Positions 3,304 to 39,826 of a stretch of 39,826 nucleotides of DNA are shown piece by piece; position 1 is the stretch's first letter, and each line of letters opens with the position of its first letter. A model generated the notes under the pieces. The model was given only the letters and a program-made list of their open reading frames with translations. It was not told the origin of the DNA and did no database searches. The stretch is from a virus. The position numbers were made by a program, and so were the translations under genes. Where the stretch lies: positions 1 through 39,826 of the IMG/VR virus record IMGVR_UViG_3300047174_000168; one strand, 5' to 3'.

Positions 3304-3348
3304 TGGTGGACGCGGTAGGGATCGAACCTACGACCAGTCGATTAAGAG
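3304..3348 (-). other. att core: 3' half of a tRNA-Lys(CUU) gene
   Basis: Read on the - strand, the segment starts with the anticodon loop CTCTTAA (anticodon CUU), then the 3' anticodon stem TCGAC, variable loop TGGTC, T stem and loop GTAGG TTCGATC CCTAC, the acceptor strand CGCGTCC, discriminator A and an encoded CCA. The expected 5' half (D arm, 5' acceptor, 5' anticodon stem) is absent; the bases upstream do not pair with TCGAC. This is therefore a tRNA fragment kept by a phage to rebuild the host tRNA on integration. It sits just downstream of the integrase gene and predicts that the phage inserts into the host tRNA-Lys(CUU) gene. Confidence 0.85.
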
Positions 3349-3391
3349 GTGACACGTCCATCGCTTGAATCCTCAATAAATACAGGCGTTT

Positions 3392-4540
3392 TTACTGAAT
3401 CCTGTCGCTGGGGTGACCAAAAATGTGCCCAGGGGCACGGTAGCGAGCGGAGGTTCTGCGGTTGCGCTCGTTGATTGCATCGTTCAAGGCGGCGATGTCC
3501 GGGTGTTGATAGGGCTTCATCGACTTGATGTCGGCGTGGCCCATCGACTTGGACACCGCGAAGATGTTGCCGGTGGCGGCCATCGTCTCCGTCCCATAGG
3601 TGTGCCGCGCGGAGTACGGCACGATCGCAGGATCCACGCCGGCACGCAAGCGAGCGGCGCGGAAGCCCTTCGCGATCGTCTCCACATGGCCTGACGCGGC
3701 CTGGGCCGAGGGAAAAACCCAGCCCGAGTCGCGGCCCATGCACCACGCAGAGAGGAGCTGCTTCATGCGGTCGCTCATGCCTACGAAGCGAGTCGCATTC
3801 GGCGTCTTGCCGGTGGGTACCCAGATGCGATCGTGCTCCCAGTGGAGGTCTTCGATCCGCATGGGAAATACCTCGTCCGGGCGCATGCCCGTATCCTGCA
3901 GGATGACGAAGATGAGCCATGCCCGCTCTCGACGGCCGCGCACCCACGGGTTGGGCTCTGCCGTGCCGAAGGCGCATTGCAGTGCGACTTCGGCGGCCTG
4001 GCTGACCATGCGGTCTCGGCCTCGGGTGGGCATGCGGTCGAAGTGTGGGCGTTGCGGGATCAGCTTCCACTCCTGCGCTTTGCCGAACATGACGCTGAGC
4101 GTGCGGATGGCCTGGTTGATGTAGGTCGCGCTGCACGCGACCGTCTCTCCGGTGGGTTCTCCGGAGCGGCGATCGATGACCGGACGCGTGAAGGTGGTGC
4201 ACTCCACGGTGTCCGACTGGATGGATTCAAGCGTCATGTTTGCCAGTGCCGTAAAGCTGAGCAGCCGCCAGCCGTACCGGTAGAACTTCTTGCTGTTGGA
4301 GGTGAGCTTCCAGCTTTTATCGACCCACTCGAGGAAGCGGGCAGAGAACTGCTGGAGCGTGGGCGGCCGGCTGCGGCGCTGGTCGGGCCGGAGCCCTTCC
4401 TCCAGCCGGGTTAGGGCGGCATTCTCTACCTGAAACGCCGCGGTTCTGGTGGTCTGGTGCGTACTGGCCCGGTAGCGCCGCCCCTGAAAGTAAAACGTGT
4501 ACCACCAGTGTTTGCTGGTGCCTTTTTTATAAAGCGACAT
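3392..4540 (-). CDS. int: Tyrosine recombinase, phage integrase
   Basis: 382 residues, normal for the family. It should catalyse integration and, with the excisionase, excision at attP. An N-terminal SAM-like arm and core-binding region (about residues 1-165) is followed by the catalytic domain. Visible active-site residues are Arg220 in GMRPDEV, Lys245, Arg312 in SARHT, His335 in MGH and the nucleophile Tyr344 in KPYQHPD. The usual His three residues before Arg312 is Tyr, a known variant. The gene ends 43 bases from the att core. Its start overlaps the end of the excisionase-like gene by 14 bases, so both are expressed from the - strand promoter near 4771-4799. The last residues read GHIFGHPSDRIQ. 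Confidence 0.95.
   Translation of the reverse strand: MSLYKKGTSKHWWYTFYFQGRRYRASTHQTTRTAAFQVENAALTRLEEGLRPDQRRSRPPTLQQFSARFLEWVDKSWKLTSNSKKFYRYGWRLLSFTALANMTLESIQSDTVECTTFTRPVIDRRSGEPTGETVACSATYINQAIRTLSVMFGKAQEWKLIPQRPHFDRMPTRGRDRMVSQAAEVALQCAFGTAEPNPWVRGRRERAWLIFVILQDTGMRPDEVFPMRIEDLHWEHDRIWVPTGKTPNATRFVGMSDRMKQLLSAWCMGRDSGWVFPSAQAASGHVETIAKGFRAARLRAGVDPAIVPYSARHTYGTETMAATGNIFAVSKSMGHADIKSMKPYQHPDIAALNDAINERNRRTSARYRAPGHIFGHPSDRIQ
3412..3432 (+). repeat. Direct repeat copy B, candidate integrase arm site
   Basis: GGTGACCAAAAATGTGCCCA followed by G, partner of the repeat at 3181-3201. It lies within the last codons of the integrase gene (encoding the GHIFGH segment), 63 bases from the att core. 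See the entry for copy A. Confidence 0.4.
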
Positions 4541-4748
4541 CGCTCGTCTCCTCGCACCTTTGCCGGGCAGGAAAGGAGAAGCGTCGCTCCGCTACATACC
4601 TTTGTATGTCCTCAAGAGGATACTTCACGCTGCGCGCGGTAAGCGCGACAAAGTTGGGGCCGGTGCGGGCGCACCGCCAAGCACGCAGGGTTCCGGGCTT
4701 TACGCCGATCAGTTCCGCCGCCTGGCGGGTGGAGAGTAGTTTCGTCAT
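4527..4748 (-). CDS. xis: Excisionase-like MerR-type HTH protein
   Basis: 73 residues from the ATG at 4748; an alternative ATG lies at 4757. The N-terminal half, LSTRQAAELIGVKPGTLRAW, is the standard winged HTH of small excisionase/AlpA-type DNA-binding proteins, followed by a wing (FVALTARSVKYPLEDIQRYV). The protein would bind near attP and direct excision, and may also regulate its own promoter. It is upstream of and overlaps int, the typical xis-int order. An ACATAC/GTATGT inverted repeat (4594-4609) lies within its coding region. Confidence 0.8.
   Translation of the reverse strand: MTKLLSTRQAAELIGVKPGTLRAWRCARTGPNFVALTARSVKYPLEDIQRYVAERRFSFPARQRCEETSDVAL
4594..4609. promoter_or_regulatory. 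Operator-like inverted repeat ACATAC-CTTT-GTATGT
   Basis: A perfect 6-bp inverted repeat with a 4-bp centre inside the excisionase gene. Its left part, CATACCTTTGTA, matches CATACCTTCGTA at 4755-4766 with one mismatch. The shared motif suggests one regulator binds both places. Confidence 0.4.
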
Positions 4749-4754
4749 AGGTCT

Positions 4755-4774
4755 CATACCTTCGTAGGTAGATA
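4755..4774. promoter_or_regulatory. Operator-like site in the divergent control region
   Basis: Contains CATACCTTCGTA and the near-palindrome TACCTTCGTAGGTA (12 of 14 positions symmetric, 4757-4770). It overlaps the predicted start of the leftward transcript and touches its -10 element at 4771-4776, so a bound repressor would block int/xis expression. A reversed relative, TAAAGGTATGA, lies at 4851-4861 over the start codon of the rightward regulator. Confidence 0.45.
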
Positions 4775-4799
4775 TACCTGCAAAGAAGTTTTCTGTAAA
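4771..4799 (-). promoter_or_regulatory. Leftward promoter for xis-int
   Basis: On the - strand: TTTACA (-35, 4794-4799), a 17-bp spacer and TATATC (-10, 4771-4776). Transcription would start near 4764, just upstream of the excisionase-like gene. Match to the sigma-70 consensus is good but not perfect. Confidence 0.5.
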
Positions 4800-4807
4800 C
4801 TTTTTTC

Positions 4808-4836
4808 TTGACATCTGGAAAATACAGGCATAGATT
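4808..4836 (+). promoter_or_regulatory. Rightward early promoter
   Basis: TTGACA (-35, perfect consensus, 4808-4813), a 17-bp spacer and TAGATT (-10, 4831-4836). Transcription would begin near 4843, about 15 bases before the regulator gene at 4858, and continue into the early operon. It lies back to back with the leftward promoter, like a lysis/lysogeny control region. Confidence 0.6.
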
Positions 4837-4850
4837 CGCATCTGTTCGGG

Positions 4851-4861
4851 TAAAGGTATGA
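4851..4861. promoter_or_regulatory. Operator-like motif over the regulator start codon
   Basis: TAAAGGTATGA, the reverse complement of TCATACCTTTA, is the third copy of the CATACCTT element found at 4596 and 4755. It overlaps the start of the gene at 4858 and lies just downstream of the predicted rightward transcription start. Confidence 0.35.
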
Positions 4862-5139
4862 CACCTAGAAATAGAAATCACGTTGGAGTCCCGAAGCGGC
4901 AGGCGGCCACCATCAACGCCATCCGTGGATTGCAGGAGCAGAACCGCATGGCCCCCACGCTGGCGGAGCTGGCCGAGGTGCTGGGCGTGACCAAGGGAAC
5001 GGTCTGGATAACGTTGCGGACGCTGGCTCGCAAGGGGCTGATCGTGAAGGCCTTCGACAAGCACCGCTCCCTGATGCTGACTGCGGCTGCCAGCCAGGTG
5101 CCGCACCAGCCGCTGAGCAAGGTCGGGAGGGCGGCATGA
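4858..5139 (+). CDS. LexA-type winged-HTH regulator
   Basis: 93 residues. The central part, APTLAELAEVLGVTKGTVWITL, followed by a helix and a wing (RTLARKGLIVKAF), closely follows the DNA-binding domain of LexA (start of a helix after a proline, then a recognition helix, then RxLxRKG). The LexA peptidase domain is absent, so the protein would not self-cleave. As first gene after the rightward promoter and opposite xis-int, it is the best candidate for the phage control protein (repressor or Cro-like). It overlaps the next gene by 4 bases (ATGA). Confidence 0.75.
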   Translation: MTPRNRNHVGVPKRQAATINAIRGLQEQNRMAPTLAELAEVLGVTKGTVWITLRTLARKGLIVKAFDKHRSLMLTAAASQVPHQPLSKVGRAA

Positions 5140-5936
5140 ATCCTGAAATGAACAAGCAGGAAAAGATTTCGCTTGCAACGGAACGCGGTGATGGTTTAGG
5201 GCCTGGATCGGGTCTAGAAAGCCCACAGCCAATAGCGGTACATCGCTTCCGTCAAAGCAATGATCTCCTAAAAACAGATCATCATACGGACGCGGGTTGC
5301 CCCACCAGCAATGGCGGGCGGCTGACTATTGGCAGCTTTCTAAACCCGCGTCCACCACTCTCTAGAAAAGAGCCGGACGCAGCCTCGCCAATAGGAGCAA
5401 GCACCGTGTCCGGTGATAATTCTGCACGCCTCGAACCGAACACGGTGCGAGGCTCCGAGAGCTCCAACGATAAGGCGCTGTGCCGGTGTACGTGCTGCGG
5501 CGCGGACCTGCTGCTGCAGGATTCCTCCGACTTTCTAAAGCGCACGGCAACGCACATACAAGCCGCGAAGGTAAGCGAGCGCGAGCTGCTGCAGGTGATC
5601 GAAGACCTGGTGCTGTATGGCCGGTTGTCTGCCTCGAATTTCCTGCTGCGTCGCGACCTGGAAGAGCGTCGCCAGGCGTGGGAGAACGCCGAGCACATCC
5701 TGCTGACGCGCCTTGCGGCCACGCTGGAGCCTGTCGACCCGGACACGCTGGATGAGGTGTCGCTGGAGCTGCGCTACGCGTTCGACCGTTACTGCCGTGG
5801 CTTTGGCGAGCCGCCCTACGACCTTGCAACCCGGGTGCTGAAGATGGCGCGAGAGCGCGGCCTGCCGCTGTGCCGCGCCAGCGAGCTGCCCTACGCGCCG
5901 GGTGCGGACGATGTGGAGGAGGCGGATGCCAAGTGA
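5136..5936 (+). CDS. Unknown protein with zinc-binding-like Cys motif
   Basis: 266 residues. Its start at 5136 overlaps the previous stop and has GGGAGG about 6 bases upstream, so translation from there is well supported. Residues 1-105 are polar, low in structure and encoded by DNA full of inverted repeats (5213-5394). Residues about 110-118 hold CRCTCCGA, a possible half zinc site. The remainder (about 120-266) is helical and charged, and looks like a normal folded domain. No family recognised. It ends by overlapping the XRE-type gene at 5933. Two separate parts, a variable linker and a conserved domain, are likely. Confidence 0.6.
   Translation: MNPEMNKQEKISLATERGDGLGPGSGLESPQPIAVHRFRQSNDLLKTDHHTDAGCPTSNGGRLTIGSFLNPRPPLSRKEPDAASPIGASTVSGDNSARLEPNTVRGSESSNDKALCRCTCCGADLLLQDSSDFLKRTATHIQAAKVSERELLQVIEDLVLYGRLSASNFLLRRDLEERRQAWENAEHILLTRLAATLEPVDPDTLDEVSLELRYAFDRYCRGFGEPPYDLATRVLKMARERGLPLCRASELPYAPGADDVEEADAK
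5213..5394. repeat. Cluster of inverted and direct repeats inside an early gene
   Basis: A motif TCTAGAAAG...GCCAATAG occurs at 5213-5236, inverted at 5326-5344 (TTTAGAAAGCTGCCAATAG on the - strand), and again at 5361-5394 with a longer spacer. A perfect 11-bp inverted repeat GGACGCGGGTT/AACCCGCGTCC (5288-5298 and 5343-5353) encloses 44 bases. ATGATCT/AGATCAT (centred near 5269) forms another short hairpin. Protein coding alone does not explain this. It may be an operator array, a recombination site or a folded mRNA element. Confidence 0.6.
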
Positions 5937-7611: not shown

Positions 7612-8370
7612 ATGATGACCAAGATCTATGCAGCGGTGGAGAGCTTTATCGACCGCGTCAAGCCGCAGCCGCTTACCGTCGAGGTGGAAGGCGAACACTA
7701 CAAGGTACAACCCGGGCAGCACGGCCTCGCGGTAGGCGACCACATCCGCAAGCCTGCACCCATCGTCAAGCACACGCTGGAGTTGCAGACGCTGACAGGC
7801 TTCGTCGCGGCGTACAAGGCGAAGATCGACAACTTTCCCGACACCGTCGCCGTTCATGTGATCGACCATAGGAGCGTCGCGCTACGGTCGCTTGAGGCCG
7901 ATGAGTTTGGCCGTCGGCATTCGTATCTGTTCAGCGTGAATGGCGAGCAGAATCCTTTCCGGTTCGACCAGTACATGATCCCGGAGGACTTCCTGATCGC
8001 GCTGCAGAGCGGCTTTCTGCCGACGGACGATGTGATCAAGCTGCAGCGGCTGGCGAGCTCCCTGACCAGCGAGAGCAGCGTGGGCGTGCAGGACGATGGC
8101 CTGTCGCAGACCATCACGGTGAGGCAGGGCGCGGTGACGCGGCAGAGCATCGATCTGCCGCCACGCATCAGGTTGTTCGCGTACCGGACCTTCCGCGAGA
8201 TCAGCCCGGTGGAGAGCGAGTTTATGGTGCGGCTGCAAGGCGAGCCGGGCAAGCTGCCGAAGATCGCTCTGCCGGAGGTGGACGCCGGGCGGTGGAAGCT
8301 CGACACGATGACGCTGATTGCGCGGTGGCTTACCGACAACCTGCCGGATGGGGCAATCGTAATCGCCTGA
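7612..8370 (+). CDS. DUF2303-like phage protein (YfdQ type)
   Basis: 252 residues (start ATG 7612; a second ATG follows at once). The overall pattern fits the DUF2303 family: an N-terminal region, then HTLELQTLTGFVAAYKA, a strand VAVHVIDHRSVAL, a FRFDQ...PEDFLIALQ segment, and a C-terminal half with an R-x-R-L-F-AYRTF strand. These are conserved in early regions of siphoviruses, often beside the gene type found just upstream here. The biochemical role is not known. Likely cytoplasmic. Confidence 0.55.
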   Translation: MMTKIYAAVESFIDRVKPQPLTVEVEGEHYKVQPGQHGLAVGDHIRKPAPIVKHTLELQTLTGFVAAYKAKIDNFPDTVAVHVIDHRSVALRSLEADEFGRRHSYLFSVNGEQNPFRFDQYMIPEDFLIALQSGFLPTDDVIKLQRLASSLTSESSVGVQDDGLSQTITVRQGAVTRQSIDLPPRIRLFAYRTFREISPVESEFMVRLQGEPGKLPKIALPEVDAGRWKLDTMTLIARWLTDNLPDGAIVIA

Positions 8371-36204: not shown

Positions 36205-39200
36205 ATGAAACGACTGCTTCTAGCGGCCGCCGCGCTCCTGTGCGTCTTTGCAGCCGGTTGCCCTGCCGACGCGCAGATGACCACCGTCACCGCAACGAAC
36301 CTTGCGTTGAGTGGGCAGCCGATCGCCAACGGCACCGCCACGTTTACGGCAGTCGACGGAACGGGCCAGCCGATCAGCTTCACGGGTGGCAATGGGGCGT
36401 TCAATCTGGCGGGCGCGTTCAGTTGCACCATCACGGCGGGTGCGCTCTCCGGCTGTCAGGTTCCGGATGCCTGCCTCACCACGCCTGCCAACATCCTGTA
36501 TACGGTCCAGATCAGCAGCGCGGGCCATGCCTACTTCCTGGCGAAGACTCCGGGCATCTGCGGCGCGACGTACACGCTGGGCAGCGTCTCGACGGCGGTG
36601 GCGCTGGTTGCCACCCTGGTGGCCACGGCTCCCAGCGGAACCTGCACCATGCCCGCGCTCGACATCAGTACGACCCCGCCCAACGCGTTTATGTGCATCG
36701 GCACCACCTGGGTGCCTATCATCGGCGCGGGAGCGGTCACCTTCTCGGGGAGCTACAACGCGGGCACAAGCTACTCGCAGTACGCGCTGGTCTCGGCTGG
36801 CGGATACACCTACATCTCTAACCTCAACGGCAACCTGGGCAACACACCCGCGACCAGTCCGACGCAGTGGACGCCGCTCGGAACTGTTGGGCCCGCTGGT
36901 CCGCCGGGTGTGCCCGGGGCCGCTGCAAACTTTACGATCGGCACCGTGGCCGCGCTTGCCGCAGGTGCTACGCCGACGGTCACCATCGGTGGAACCGCGC
37001 CAAATTACGTCCTGAACCTCGGGATTCCGGTCGGGCAGGCGGGAACGAATGGTGCACCCGGAGCGACGCCGACATTCACCATTGGCACGGTTACCGGTCT
37101 GGCTTATGGATTTGCTCCGACCGCATCCTTGGGGGGAACTGCGCCGAACTATCTGCTCAATCTTGGCATCCCGGCAGGCGCGGCGGGTGCAAACGGCACG
37201 CCCGGAACGAATGGCACCAACGGCGCGAATGGCGCGACGCCCATCCTCACCGTGGGAACCGTGACGCAGCTTGCGGCGGGATCGACGCCAACCTTCACCA
37301 TCACCGGCACCGCGCCGAACTACACCGTCAATATCGGCATCCCGGCGGGCGCAGCGGGTGCAAACGGCACACCCGGAACGAATGGCACCAACGGCACGAA
37401 TGGTGCGACGCCGGTCCTCAGCGTCGGCACCGTGACGCAGCTTGCGGCGGGATCGACGCCAACCTTCACCATCACCGGCACCGCGCCAAATTACACCGTC
37501 AATATCGGCATCCCGGCGGGCGCGACCGGTCCCGCTGGTCCGCTCAGCTACACAGCCATATCCTCGCAGTCGGCTGCGACCTACGCCATCACCTCATCGG
37601 ATTGCAACCAGCAAGGGTCGGAGGTGCAGTTCACCTCGTCAACCGGCACGGCGATCACGTTGCCCACAACCGGCGTCACCGCTGGATGCGTCGTGCGCAT
37701 CAAGAACCTCGTCGCCGGACAGACACTCGCCATCACGCCCGCGAGCGGCACCATCGATCAGGATGCCTCGCTCAATATCAGCTATCCCGGCGATGGCGAG
37801 TTCTTCTTCACCGGAGCGACCACCGGCATCACCTGGCTCGGCTTCGGCGGCTACGGCGTGCGCGGTGCCTCCGCGCTGACCACGCTGTATGCCGCGCCCT
37901 ACGTCTCGAACATCGGCAGGCTCGGCCAGGTCGCCATCAATGGCCTCGCGAAGTACGGCCCTACCGGGCCGCCAACCGCCGCGCTGCCGGGCACGGACTA
38001 CGAGCCCGACTACATGCGCGAGCGTGGCATGTCGAGCGCTCCCACGCTGCCCATGTCGGAGGAAGGCATCGGCGCGGTGCCGTACACCTACGGCGCGGCC
38101 ATCGGCCTGCGCTACTTCGTCGATGCCTGCCTCGGCTCGGACTCGAACGATGGCCGGTCGGAGGTCTTCCCCTGGAAGACGCTGGCGCACGTCGGCGTAA
38201 CGCCTGCGATCTTCGGCCCGGATACGACCGTCCTGCTGCACGATAACTGCGTCTTCCATGACGAACTGCTGCTCGGCAATAATGTCACCGCGACGGGCAG
38301 CACCACGCTCACCTCCAATCCACCTGCGTTCAGCGGCACGCCTGGGCATCCTGTCGTCATCACCAGCTATGGCCCGCAAGGCCCGGCGCTGATCGATGGC
38401 TCGGACGCAATCGTCGCCACCTGGACCGCCGTTAGCGGCCAGACGACCGTCTTCCAGGCGACGCTGCCCTCCGTCGCGACCACCAACGTCGCTTACGCCA
38501 GCGGCACCTTCACCGTCACGCTGCCCGCCGCAAGAACCTACATTCAGAACTCAGAGGTATCGCTGGTCAACTGCACCAACGCGGACTTCGACGGCACCGG
38601 CGCGATCATCACCTCGACGACCGGCAACATCCGGCCCAGCAACGTCTTCACGATCACCGGCATCGCGGCACCGGCGGAAAGCAGCTCGCTCGGATGCGGC
38701 GTCGTCTTTATGCCGCGCAAACTCTATGTCGACCAGGGCGATGCTGCCAATCCCGAGTTCCCGTTGCAGACGCAGCCACTCACCGCGGAGCATAACTACG
38801 CGGGATGCTGGGCTGCGAGCACGAAATACAACTTCCTCGACTCCGTCTCAAGCTGCGCGGCGACGCCTGTCTTCTCGCTCTACTTGGAGCAGGAGTCCGG
38901 CTCCGATGCCTCCATCGCTGCCGGGCCTACCATTACGCCGTTCAACCAGGCTGCGGTCTCGGACACAAACACCGGCCTGCAGAACGTAATCGCCAACTCG
39001 GGCAGTTGGTACGCCTCTGGCAGCACCATCTATGTGCATCTCGCGACCGGCGACAACCCGGGCGGCCACACCATCGAGGGTGTTCAGCGAGTCTTTGGCG
39101 TGGCGTTGCTGAGCGTCAACGACGTCACCGTGGATGGCATCGCGGTGGAGCGGACGCAGGGTCCAGCCATCGCCAGCGGCGTCTTCACCAACCCGACGCT

Positions 39201-39826
39201 CGCGGGGGCATACACCACCGGAAACGACATCACCATCCAGAACTCCATCGTGGTGAACTACTCGGACTCCGGCTTCCCGAACGTCTGGCAGCAGGGCGGT
39301 GCTGGCACCAAGCTCTTCGGTGCGGGCTCGGCTGGCATCAACGGCGGTATCCTCATCGCGGGGTACCAGGCAAGCTGCCTCTGCGCTCCGCAGATTCAGA
39401 ACCCGACGATCCTCAACAACTCGGTCGGGCAGTTCGACGATCCGTGGGCGTTCTCTTCGTTTCAGAAGGTGGGCGTCGGCCTCTTCGGCTTCAATAACGG
39501 CACGATCAGCGGCAACTTTGTCGCGACCACGTTCGACACGGCCATCAGCTCCACCTACGCGAGCAGCCCCGGAAACACCGGCCTGACGATGGCCTATAAC
39601 TATACGACGAACTCCAACATCAACTACTCGATCGCGGCCACGCAGAACGCCGTCTTCCACCACAACCGCGCGCTCAGCTCCTCTGGCGAGGGCCTGCAGA
39701 CCGGCGGCGCGGTCATCAGCCAGTCGACGCCCGCGAATGGCTTCCCGGCTGGCACGGAGTGGTGCGACACCAACATCCTCGCTTACGACAACGTGATGGC
39801 CTACCTCGCGCCCAGCCTGGGCAACG
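36205..39826 (+). CDS. Tailspike-like protein with collagen-like and beta-helix parts, truncated
   Basis: The gene is open at the window end after 1207 codons plus one base. ATG 36205 has AGAAGGA upstream. The N terminus MKRLLLAAAALLCVFAAGCPADAQ is a signal peptide with either an ADA cleavage site or a weak lipobox (AAGC). Then come a beta-rich region, a GPAGPPGVPG stretch and four modules of 48-57 residues with TAPNY..N.GIP and (NGT)n Gly-rich runs (36928-37540). From about residue 630, FVDACLGSDSNDGRS...PWKTLAHVGV starts a right-handed parallel beta-helix, typical of tailspikes and polysaccharide lyases. It could bind and degrade host capsule or EPS. The rest continues beyond base 39826. 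Confidence 0.7.
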   Translation, partial: MKRLLLAAAALLCVFAAGCPADAQMTTVTATNLALSGQPIANGTATFTAVDGTGQPISFTGGNGAFNLAGAFSCTITAGALSGCQVPDACLTTPANILYTVQISSAGHAYFLAKTPGICGATYTLGSVSTAVALVATLVATAPSGTCTMPALDISTTPPNAFMCIGTTWVPIIGAGAVTFSGSYNAGTSYSQYALVSAGGYTYISNLNGNLGNTPATSPTQWTPLGTVGPAGPPGVPGAAANFTIGTVAALAAGATPTVTIGGTAPNYVLNLGIPVGQAGTNGAPGATPTFTIGTVTGLAYGFAPTASLGGTAPNYLLNLGIPAGAAGANGTPGTNGTNGANGATPILTVGTVTQLAAGSTPTFTITGTAPNYTVNIGIPAGAAGANGTPGTNGTNGTNGATPVLSVGTVTQLAAGSTPTFTITGTAPNYTVNIGIPAGATGPAGPLSYTAISSQSAATYAITSSDCNQQGSEVQFTSSTGTAITLPTTGVTAGCVVRIKNLVAGQTLAITPASGTIDQDASLNISYPGDGEFFFTGATTGITWLGFGGYGVRGASALTTLYAAPYVSNIGRLGQVAINGLAKYGPTGPPTAALPGTDYEPDYMRERGMSSAPTLPMSEEGIGAVPYTYGAAIGLRYFVDACLGSDSNDGRSEVFPWKTLAHVGVTPAIFGPDTTVLLHDNCVFHDELLLGNNVTATGSTTLTSNPPAFSGTPGHPVVITSYGPQGPALIDGSDAIVATWTAVSGQTTVFQATLPSVATTNVAYASGTFTVTLPAARTYIQNSEVSLVNCTNADFDGTGAIITSTTGNIRPSNVFTITGIAAPAESSSLGCGVVFMPRKLYVDQGDAANPEFPLQTQPLTAEHNYAGCWAASTKYNFLDSVSSCAATPVFSLYLEQESGSDASIAAGPTITPFNQAAVSDTNTGLQNVIANSGSWYASGSTIYVHLATGDNPGGHTIEGVQRVFGVALLSVNDVTVDGIAVERTQGPAIASGVFTNPTLAGAYTTGNDITIQNSIVVNYSDSGFPNVWQQGGAGTKLFGAGSAGINGGILIAGYQASCLCAPQIQNPTILNNSVGQFDDPWAFSSFQKVGVGLFGFNNGTISGNFVATTFDTAISSTYASSPGNTGLTMAYNYTTNSNINYSIAATQNAVFHHNRALSSSGEGLQTGGAVISQSTPANGFPAGTEWCDTNILAYDNVMAYLAPSLGN
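36928..37542 (+). repeat. Four collagen-like tailspike modules
   Basis: Modules start at 36928 (48 codons), 37072 and 37243 (57 codons each) and 37414 (partial). Each reads roughly VGTVxxLAAGxTPTxTIxGTAPNYxxNxGIP, then a Gly-rich loop such as GANGTPGTNGTNG. Modules 3 and 4 are almost identical at DNA level over about 130 bp, so they arose by recent duplication, and can gain or lose copies by recombination. Confidence 0.85.

Follow-up and report, generated by a model that had tools for sequence, protein, structure and literature searches.

Repeats within an open reading frame of a temperate phage as very probable parts of a c4/CI-type antisense RNA module, with a probable relation to sRNA-Xcc1

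Antisense RNA modules of P4 and P1/P7 and the layout of the phage locus

Antisense RNAs of the c4/CI type keep the phages P1 and P4 silent. In the layout known for trans-acting RNAs of this kind, two sense copies accompany one antisense copy, and the targets of P1/P7 c4 known so far are antirepressors. The CI RNA of P4 pairs with seqA upstream and with seqC downstream (PMC4825925, in excerpt). It lies within eta, from which Kil can be translated as a shortened product; eta is coupled to an upstream alpA homologue and translation of Eta prevents termination (PMC10111431, in excerpt). The C4 RNA is a substrate of RNase P (PMC11143913, in excerpt). According to PMC4825925 (in excerpt), the IsrK/STnc1160 region of the Salmonella prophage Gifsy-1 is structurally homologous to P4 SeqA and has a processed RNA downstream, but the Rfam model isrK does not match the region studied here.

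The window, by which we mean the whole 39,826-base viral record IMGVR_UViG_3300047174_000168, is a tailed temperate phage genome and its host is probably a proteobacterium. Relatives of its terminase reach at most 77% identity in IMG/VR, and those among named genomes do not exceed about 52%. Searches of IMG/VR for relatives of the upstream helix-turn-helix (HTH) gene, of the gene at 7612-8370 and of the integrase found none, and the immunity region is thus without a close relative found. Reading frames at 1-444 and 36205-39825 continue past the two record ends, and the record is therefore either a fragment or a genome opened within a gene. Adjoining the integrase gene, a sub-threshold tRNA fragment (3307-3359, minus strand, 24.2 bits, E 0.81) is possibly the attachment site of the phage. 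Upstream of the winged-HTH gene there is a promoter-like TTGACA-N17-TAGATT (4808-4836), and the TGA of this gene overlaps the ATG at 5136 as ATGA (5136-5139).

Table 1. Coordinates of the features at and around the repeats (plus and minus refer to the strand of the window).
Feature	Position	Strand	Basis
Integrase gene	3392-4540	-	profile matches
Excisionase-like gene	4527-4841	-	profile matches
Upstream regulator gene, 93-aa winged-HTH protein, LexA DNA-binding-domain-like	4858-5139	+	Pfam PF01726, E 2.8e-7
Long open reading frame, 266 aa, GGGAGG before ATG; candidate (inferred) counterpart of P4 eta	5136-5936	+	frame; position
Upstream target copy, b1 TCTAGAAAG (5213-5221) and a1 GCCAATAG (5228-5235), laid out as TCTAGAAAG-CCCACA-GCCAATAG	5213-5235	+	sequence; duplex scan
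Small hairpin ATGATCT/AGATCAT, no T-run	5260-5282	+	fold, -4.4 kcal/mol
Predicted antisense RNA, 70 nt, three-way junction	5288-5357	+	fold; R1 model; sub-threshold RF02221 match
RNA closing stem, 11 bp	5288-5298/5343-5353		
RNA hairpin 1, GCAA tetraloop	5299-5319		
RNA hairpin 2, loop ACUAUUGG (5325-5332)	5320-5337		
RNA linker UUCUA, single-stranded	5338-5342		
tRNA-like ACCA tail directly after the closing stem	5354-5357		
Inverted copy in the RNA (antisense element, seqB-like), CTATTGGC-AG-CTTTCTAAA	5326-5344	+	sequence
Downstream target copy, b2 TCTAGAAA (5361-5368) and a2 GCCAATAG (5387-5394)	5361-5394	+	sequence
Shine-Dalgarno AGGAG, 8 nt before GTG 5406	5393-5397	+	
Hairpin with the GTG start codon within its stem, -20.9 kcal/mol	5401-5448	+	
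Nested target gene, 176 aa, cysteine cluster CRCTCC near the N-terminus; candidate counterpart of P4 kil	5406-5936	+	codon score
Terminase gene	starts 18632		

The repeats at 5213-5394 are very probably the parts of an antisense RNA immunity module of the P4-CI/P1-c4 type, judged by their sequence and arrangement, and such a module would explain why they are embedded in an open reading frame. The locus shares with P4 the order b1-a1, RNA, b2-a2 at the Shine-Dalgarno sequence, a target gene placed in-frame within a longer open reading frame that spans the RNA, and a regulator gene directly upstream. The upstream copy corresponds to seqA of P4 and a1b1 of c4, the downstream copy to seqC and a2b2; in P4 the upstream sites are GTGAGAA and TTCACAGG, while downstream GTGAGAA recurs together with TTCACAGGA at the Shine-Dalgarno sequence. 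With c4 of P1/P7 the locus has in common the three-way junction, the antisense element in the loop of hairpin 2 and the linker, the tRNA-like NCC end and the two target copies. There are also differences: no sequence likeness to P4 was found, the upstream gene encodes a LexA-like winged helix in place of AlpA, and P4 is a satellite whereas the window has a terminase and tail genes of its own. For the internal promoter of P4 no consensus-like counterpart was found between 5136 and 5213, while the other parts match P4 part for part. Terminators between target and RNA, as found in relatives, were not seen in the window.

From the behaviour of P1 and P4 we infer how the module is likely to work. 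In a lysogen, a transcript of the plus strand would be cut by RNase P at G5288, and a stable RNA would be released from the leader. The freed RNA would pair with the upstream copy on new transcripts as well as with the downstream copy; the gene at 5406 would then remain untranslated and transcription into the early operon would be halted. Being diffusible, the RNA would also reach a superinfecting phage and act there.

The leader frame and the nested gene

The first-pass annotation had placed the repeats in the first third of a translated gene. The frame is indeed open there, but with -0.29 per codon as its codon score and a third-position GC of 0.46 the stretch 5136-5405 does not resemble ordinary coding sequence of this phage, and there is a second good start, AGGAG-N8-GTG, at 5406, from which the sequence (5406-5933) resembles the phage's genes (codon score +0.29, third-position GC 0.80). 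Given this shift at 5406, the simplest choice of target is the 176-aa gene, and 5136-5405 is its leader, which is possibly also translated. Codon scores by themselves suggest that this stretch is purely noncoding, a reading that the parallel with P4 reopens.

In P4, translation of Eta prevents termination, and an eta-like override by translation from 5136 has, by analogy, about an even chance of operating here. The ATG at 5136 overlaps the stop codon of the upstream regulator gene, similar to the coupling of eta to the alpA homologue; on transcripts from the upstream promoter, ribosomes starting at 5136 would sweep over the RNA and its targets and could thereby lift the block. The competing view is that the antisense module is present, but that the open frame 5136-5405 is accidental and never translated, with 5406-5936 as the sole gene and no override. 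We consider this a serious alternative that falls somewhat short of probable. The negative codon score and the low third-position GC before 5406 argue for it, as does the absence of stop codons from the 90 codons before 5406, which is not an extreme event (simulated chance 4.5%). The wider class of these RNAs points the same way: the target frame is open for at least 90 nt at 7 of 34 loci, compared with 14 of 68 controls in other frames, and is thus open no more than chance, so that the nested gene would be a feature of the P4 type, with three cases. Against an accidental frame stand the ATGA overlap with its good ribosome site and the other two of these cases. P4 has the same open frame and its full-length translation is published (PMC10111431, in excerpt). 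In Comamonas testosteroni (L301), the leader is likewise open in-frame and the fold of the RNA is nearly identical to that of the window. The target frame is open through the RNA for 531 nt upstream of GTG 5406 in the window, for 471 nt in the Comamonas locus and for 456 nt in P4 (simulated chance of an open leader 0.9% and 2.2% for the latter two). The parts of the Comamonas locus follow one another as they do in the window and in P4. An int-alpA RNA (57.5 bits, positions 102-171 of L301) precedes its antisense RNA by about 1.3 kb, a position as in a P4-like satellite.

A sigma-70-like promoter was sought between 5136 and 5213 and none was found, in a search confined to consensus-like promoters. 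The hairpin around the GTG and an alternative hairpin (5372-5414), which encloses the Shine-Dalgarno sequence, may be mutually exclusive.

P4 also illustrates a trap in annotation. In its record (L332, NC_001609, 8168-8584) a 137-aa 'cI gene product' is annotated over the antisense RNA, and the frame of this product extends as far as an ATG at 8365. The open reading frame 5136-5936 of the window presents the same trap, and gene-calling programs may in this way merge the region of an antisense RNA with the next phage gene.

By analogy, the 176-aa protein may be a Kil-like or antirepressor-like early protein. An antirepressor domain was sought in Pfam, PHROGs and NCBIfam without a match, and no family scored above its cut-off, which by these searches sets the protein apart from both the P4 protein and the targets of c4. 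No homologue was found in INPHARED (DNA and protein), in IMG/VR and GTDB contigs (scans sensitive to close relatives only), in 398 Xanthomonadales genomes or in 50 phage records with related terminases (50 of 80 loci found). Its predicted structure has a pLDDT of 44.6, too low for a fold search.

The predicted RNA and its target copies

The three motif copies reported by the first-pass annotation, one of them inverted, are all present; the second half of the inverted copy, TTTAGAAAG, has one mismatch to the TCTAGAAA half. Also present is the perfect 11-bp inverted repeat around 44 bases (GGACGCGGGTT at 5288-5298 and AACCCGCGTCC at 5343-5353), which forms the closing stem of the folded RNA. The loop of hairpin 2 together with the linker is complementary to GCCAATAG and to (T/C)TAGAAA, and a2 overlaps the Shine-Dalgarno sequence of the GTG at 5406. 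The RNA (5288-5357) has a fold energy of -37.5 kcal/mol and the surrounding stretch 5260-5370 folds with z -4.6. Compared with synonymous codon shuffles, 5288-5353 is far more stable (z -5.6, 0/500) and the whole of 5136-5405 is so too (z -3.9, 1/500). Together with the part-for-part match to the layout of P4, this supports the earlier suggestion that the open reading frame harbours a function at the RNA level. The additional ATGATCT/AGATCAT hairpin fared less well: it exists, but it is weak, and no counterpart was identified in the relatives.

Pairing between the RNA and its copies was examined in several ways. The loop and linker find 8-nt complements on both sides of the RNA, on the same strand, while the flanks of 16 foreign loci offer this RNA at most 6 nt upstream and reach 8 nt downstream in 2 of 16. 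Among 5306 sliding stretches of both strands, and apart from the RNA itself, the RNA core forms its best duplex with the upstream sense copy. For the downstream target, cofolding gives no net gain (0 to -0.4 kcal/mol) by a measure that cannot model loop contacts and that ranges from 0 to -7.6 at 16 further loci with RNAs of this class, some of them true C4 RNAs.

The minimum-energy fold of 5200-5420 (-86.3 kcal/mol, z -4.5) brings the upstream and the inverted copy together in a long stem. This would suit a leader that acts in cis only, as an attenuator without a free RNA, in which these two copies pair with each other or free the ribosome site; yet the RNA is closed by a stem of its own, to which the ACCA attaches directly in the manner of c4-type RNAs, and two sense copies to one antisense copy are the trans-acting layout, which makes a purely cis-acting leader unlikely.

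The copies had also been proposed to be an operator array or a recombination site. Short motifs in both orientations, close to an integrase and a regulator gene, would fit such a DNA element, or an iteron, but the two halves of the motif are 6, 2 and 18 nt apart in copy 1, the inverted copy and copy 3, the arrangement is specific in strand and order and ends at a Shine-Dalgarno sequence, and the fold and the model matches are at the level of RNA. With the copies accounted for as one antisense RNA and two targets, the proposal is unsupported and we regard a DNA element as very improbable. That the repeats arose by chance in a low-complexity N-terminal peptide, for which the short motif (8+8 nt) speaks, is hardly credible given that none of 400 Markov windows has the strict arrangement described below and that the fold exceeds synonymous codon shuffles.

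For this strict test of the antisense module, an arrangement was defined by a stem of 9 bp or more, NCC following its 3' arm and an inner 8-mer with two complementary sites, one upstream and one at a downstream Shine-Dalgarno sequence with a start codon. It occurs at one place in the window and, as mentioned, at none in 400 Markov windows; the pattern is not a chance one. When the NCC and Shine-Dalgarno conditions are dropped, 4 of 400 Markov windows qualify. Under loose conditions in a previous run, 3 of 60 Markov windows qualified, and 111 records contained a single match outside this element. The 8-mer GCCAATAG itself occurs three times in the 39.8 kb, always within this element (0.62 expected; three or more in 2 of 100 shuffles).

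The RNA lies outside both Rfam families of interest, C4 (RF01695, cut-off 45 bits) and sRNA-Xcc1 (RF02221, cut-off 53 bits), but it has the anatomy of the c4/CI class. The C4 model matches the P4 RNA with 74.9 bits, but it has no match in the window region at E 5 or 10. RF02221 matches with 32.7 bits, below its cut-off (E 1.1e-3 when 801 nt are searched and 1.4e-4 for 106 nt), and this match is lost in filtered searches of the whole window. A further model, R1, was made from 18 sRNA-Xcc1-type RNAs with the window excluded; searched against the whole window with filters off, it places 5289-5356 first (22.4 bits, E 0.0039), followed by a match of 15.4 bits (E 0.17). R1 does not match the P4 RNA and hence does not cover the whole class. 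The window RNA is thus a case missed by current RNA models.

In the 50 records of phages with related terminases, RF02221 has no match, whereas C4 has matches in 8 at E 10 and in 3 above its cut-off; the terminases of the C4-bearing phages are about 48% identical to that of the window. At one C4 locus (L083), a P22_AR_N antirepressor gene comes after the RNA, and the sites keep the order seen in the window: TTGGCCT and AAGTCGG lie upstream, and AAGTCGGA is placed at the Shine-Dalgarno sequence of the antirepressor. At 30 int-alpA loci, taken from among the matches in 300 Burkholderiales genomes, an architecture test identified no RNA of the short type; this test is insensitive, as P4 and the Comamonas locus also escaped it. 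R1 had one weak match at these 30 loci (E 0.26).

A probable wider family: sRNA-Xcc1

sRNA-Xcc1 is known as an integron sRNA of Xanthomonas and has been discussed as acting in trans, in virulence and even across kingdoms. Recent papers tie it to virulence and plant targets, or locate it ahead of symE and speak of 'a divergent regulatory mechanism' (PMC12189769 and PMC12444791, both in excerpt). In the literature covered, in part as excerpts and with the 2011 sRNA-Xcc1 paper outside its scope, we found no description of sRNA-Xcc1 as a c4-type RNA.

Our sequence comparisons suggest that sRNA-Xcc1 is probably a second and very widespread family of the c4/CI type beyond Rfam C4, which would silence antirepressors of prophages and, in Xanthomonadaceae, SymE-type toxin genes. 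The window RNA would be an outlying member of it in a tailed phage, where a gene nested as in P4 encodes a new target protein: it shares with sRNA-Xcc1 the junction, the flanking targets and the sub-threshold model match, but both the window and the Comamonas RNA lack the conserved AAUACAA internal loop of hairpin 1. If this assignment is true, it would provide a mechanism and concrete targets for a family that has been tied to virulence and plant targets.

The conserved pattern of sRNA-Xcc1 is present at 80 or more IMG/VR loci (L111-L190 are viral contigs). Among the matches listed, 81 instances have full flanks, 48 of them non-redundant. In these 48, the longest exact complement to the 3' half of the RNA has a mean length of 7.75 nt upstream and 7.29 nt downstream when each RNA is compared with its own flanks; with exchanged flanks the means are 6.07 and 5.44 nt, and none of 5000 permutations reaches either of the own values. 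Complements of at least 7 nt are found upstream in 38 of the 48 (12.0 expected) and downstream in 42 (6.6 expected), and many of the downstream matches among those listed are at Shine-Dalgarno sequences. A target test by duplex energy is weaker: the own flank ranks in the best 5% for 11 of 50 RNAs upstream and for 11 of 50 downstream. Thus, for the targets of sRNA-Xcc1, the length of the exact complement is decisive and duplex energy is a weak measure. A variable loop and linker with matching targets would be a ready system for the evolution of RNA immunity specificities.

The next open reading frame after the RNA could be picked mechanically at 41 of the 48 loci, again among the matches listed, and in 29 of the 41 it encodes a Pfam domain typical of antirepressors or phage regulators (P22_AR, KilA-N, Bro-N, Rha, AntA or ORF6N; in L138 below the Pfam cut-off).

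At E 0.01, sRNA-Xcc1 is found in 97 of 297 Xanthomonadaceae genomes. RNAs of an 83-nt type (L311, L312, L316, L322 and L330) have kept the upstream target, while no clear downstream target was seen at these five loci, which speaks against a uniform picture; they are possibly solitary RNAs that act elsewhere, for example on incoming phages. Among eight Xanthomonadaceae loci viewed, the RNAs of an 88-nt type are located before small genes, with a SymE_toxin domain in all three that were scanned (L302, L305, L310); a further locus, L306, is of the SymE type by inspection and lies outside the three scanned with Pfam. The targets of this 88-nt type are positioned upstream of the RNA and at or near the Shine-Dalgarno sequence.
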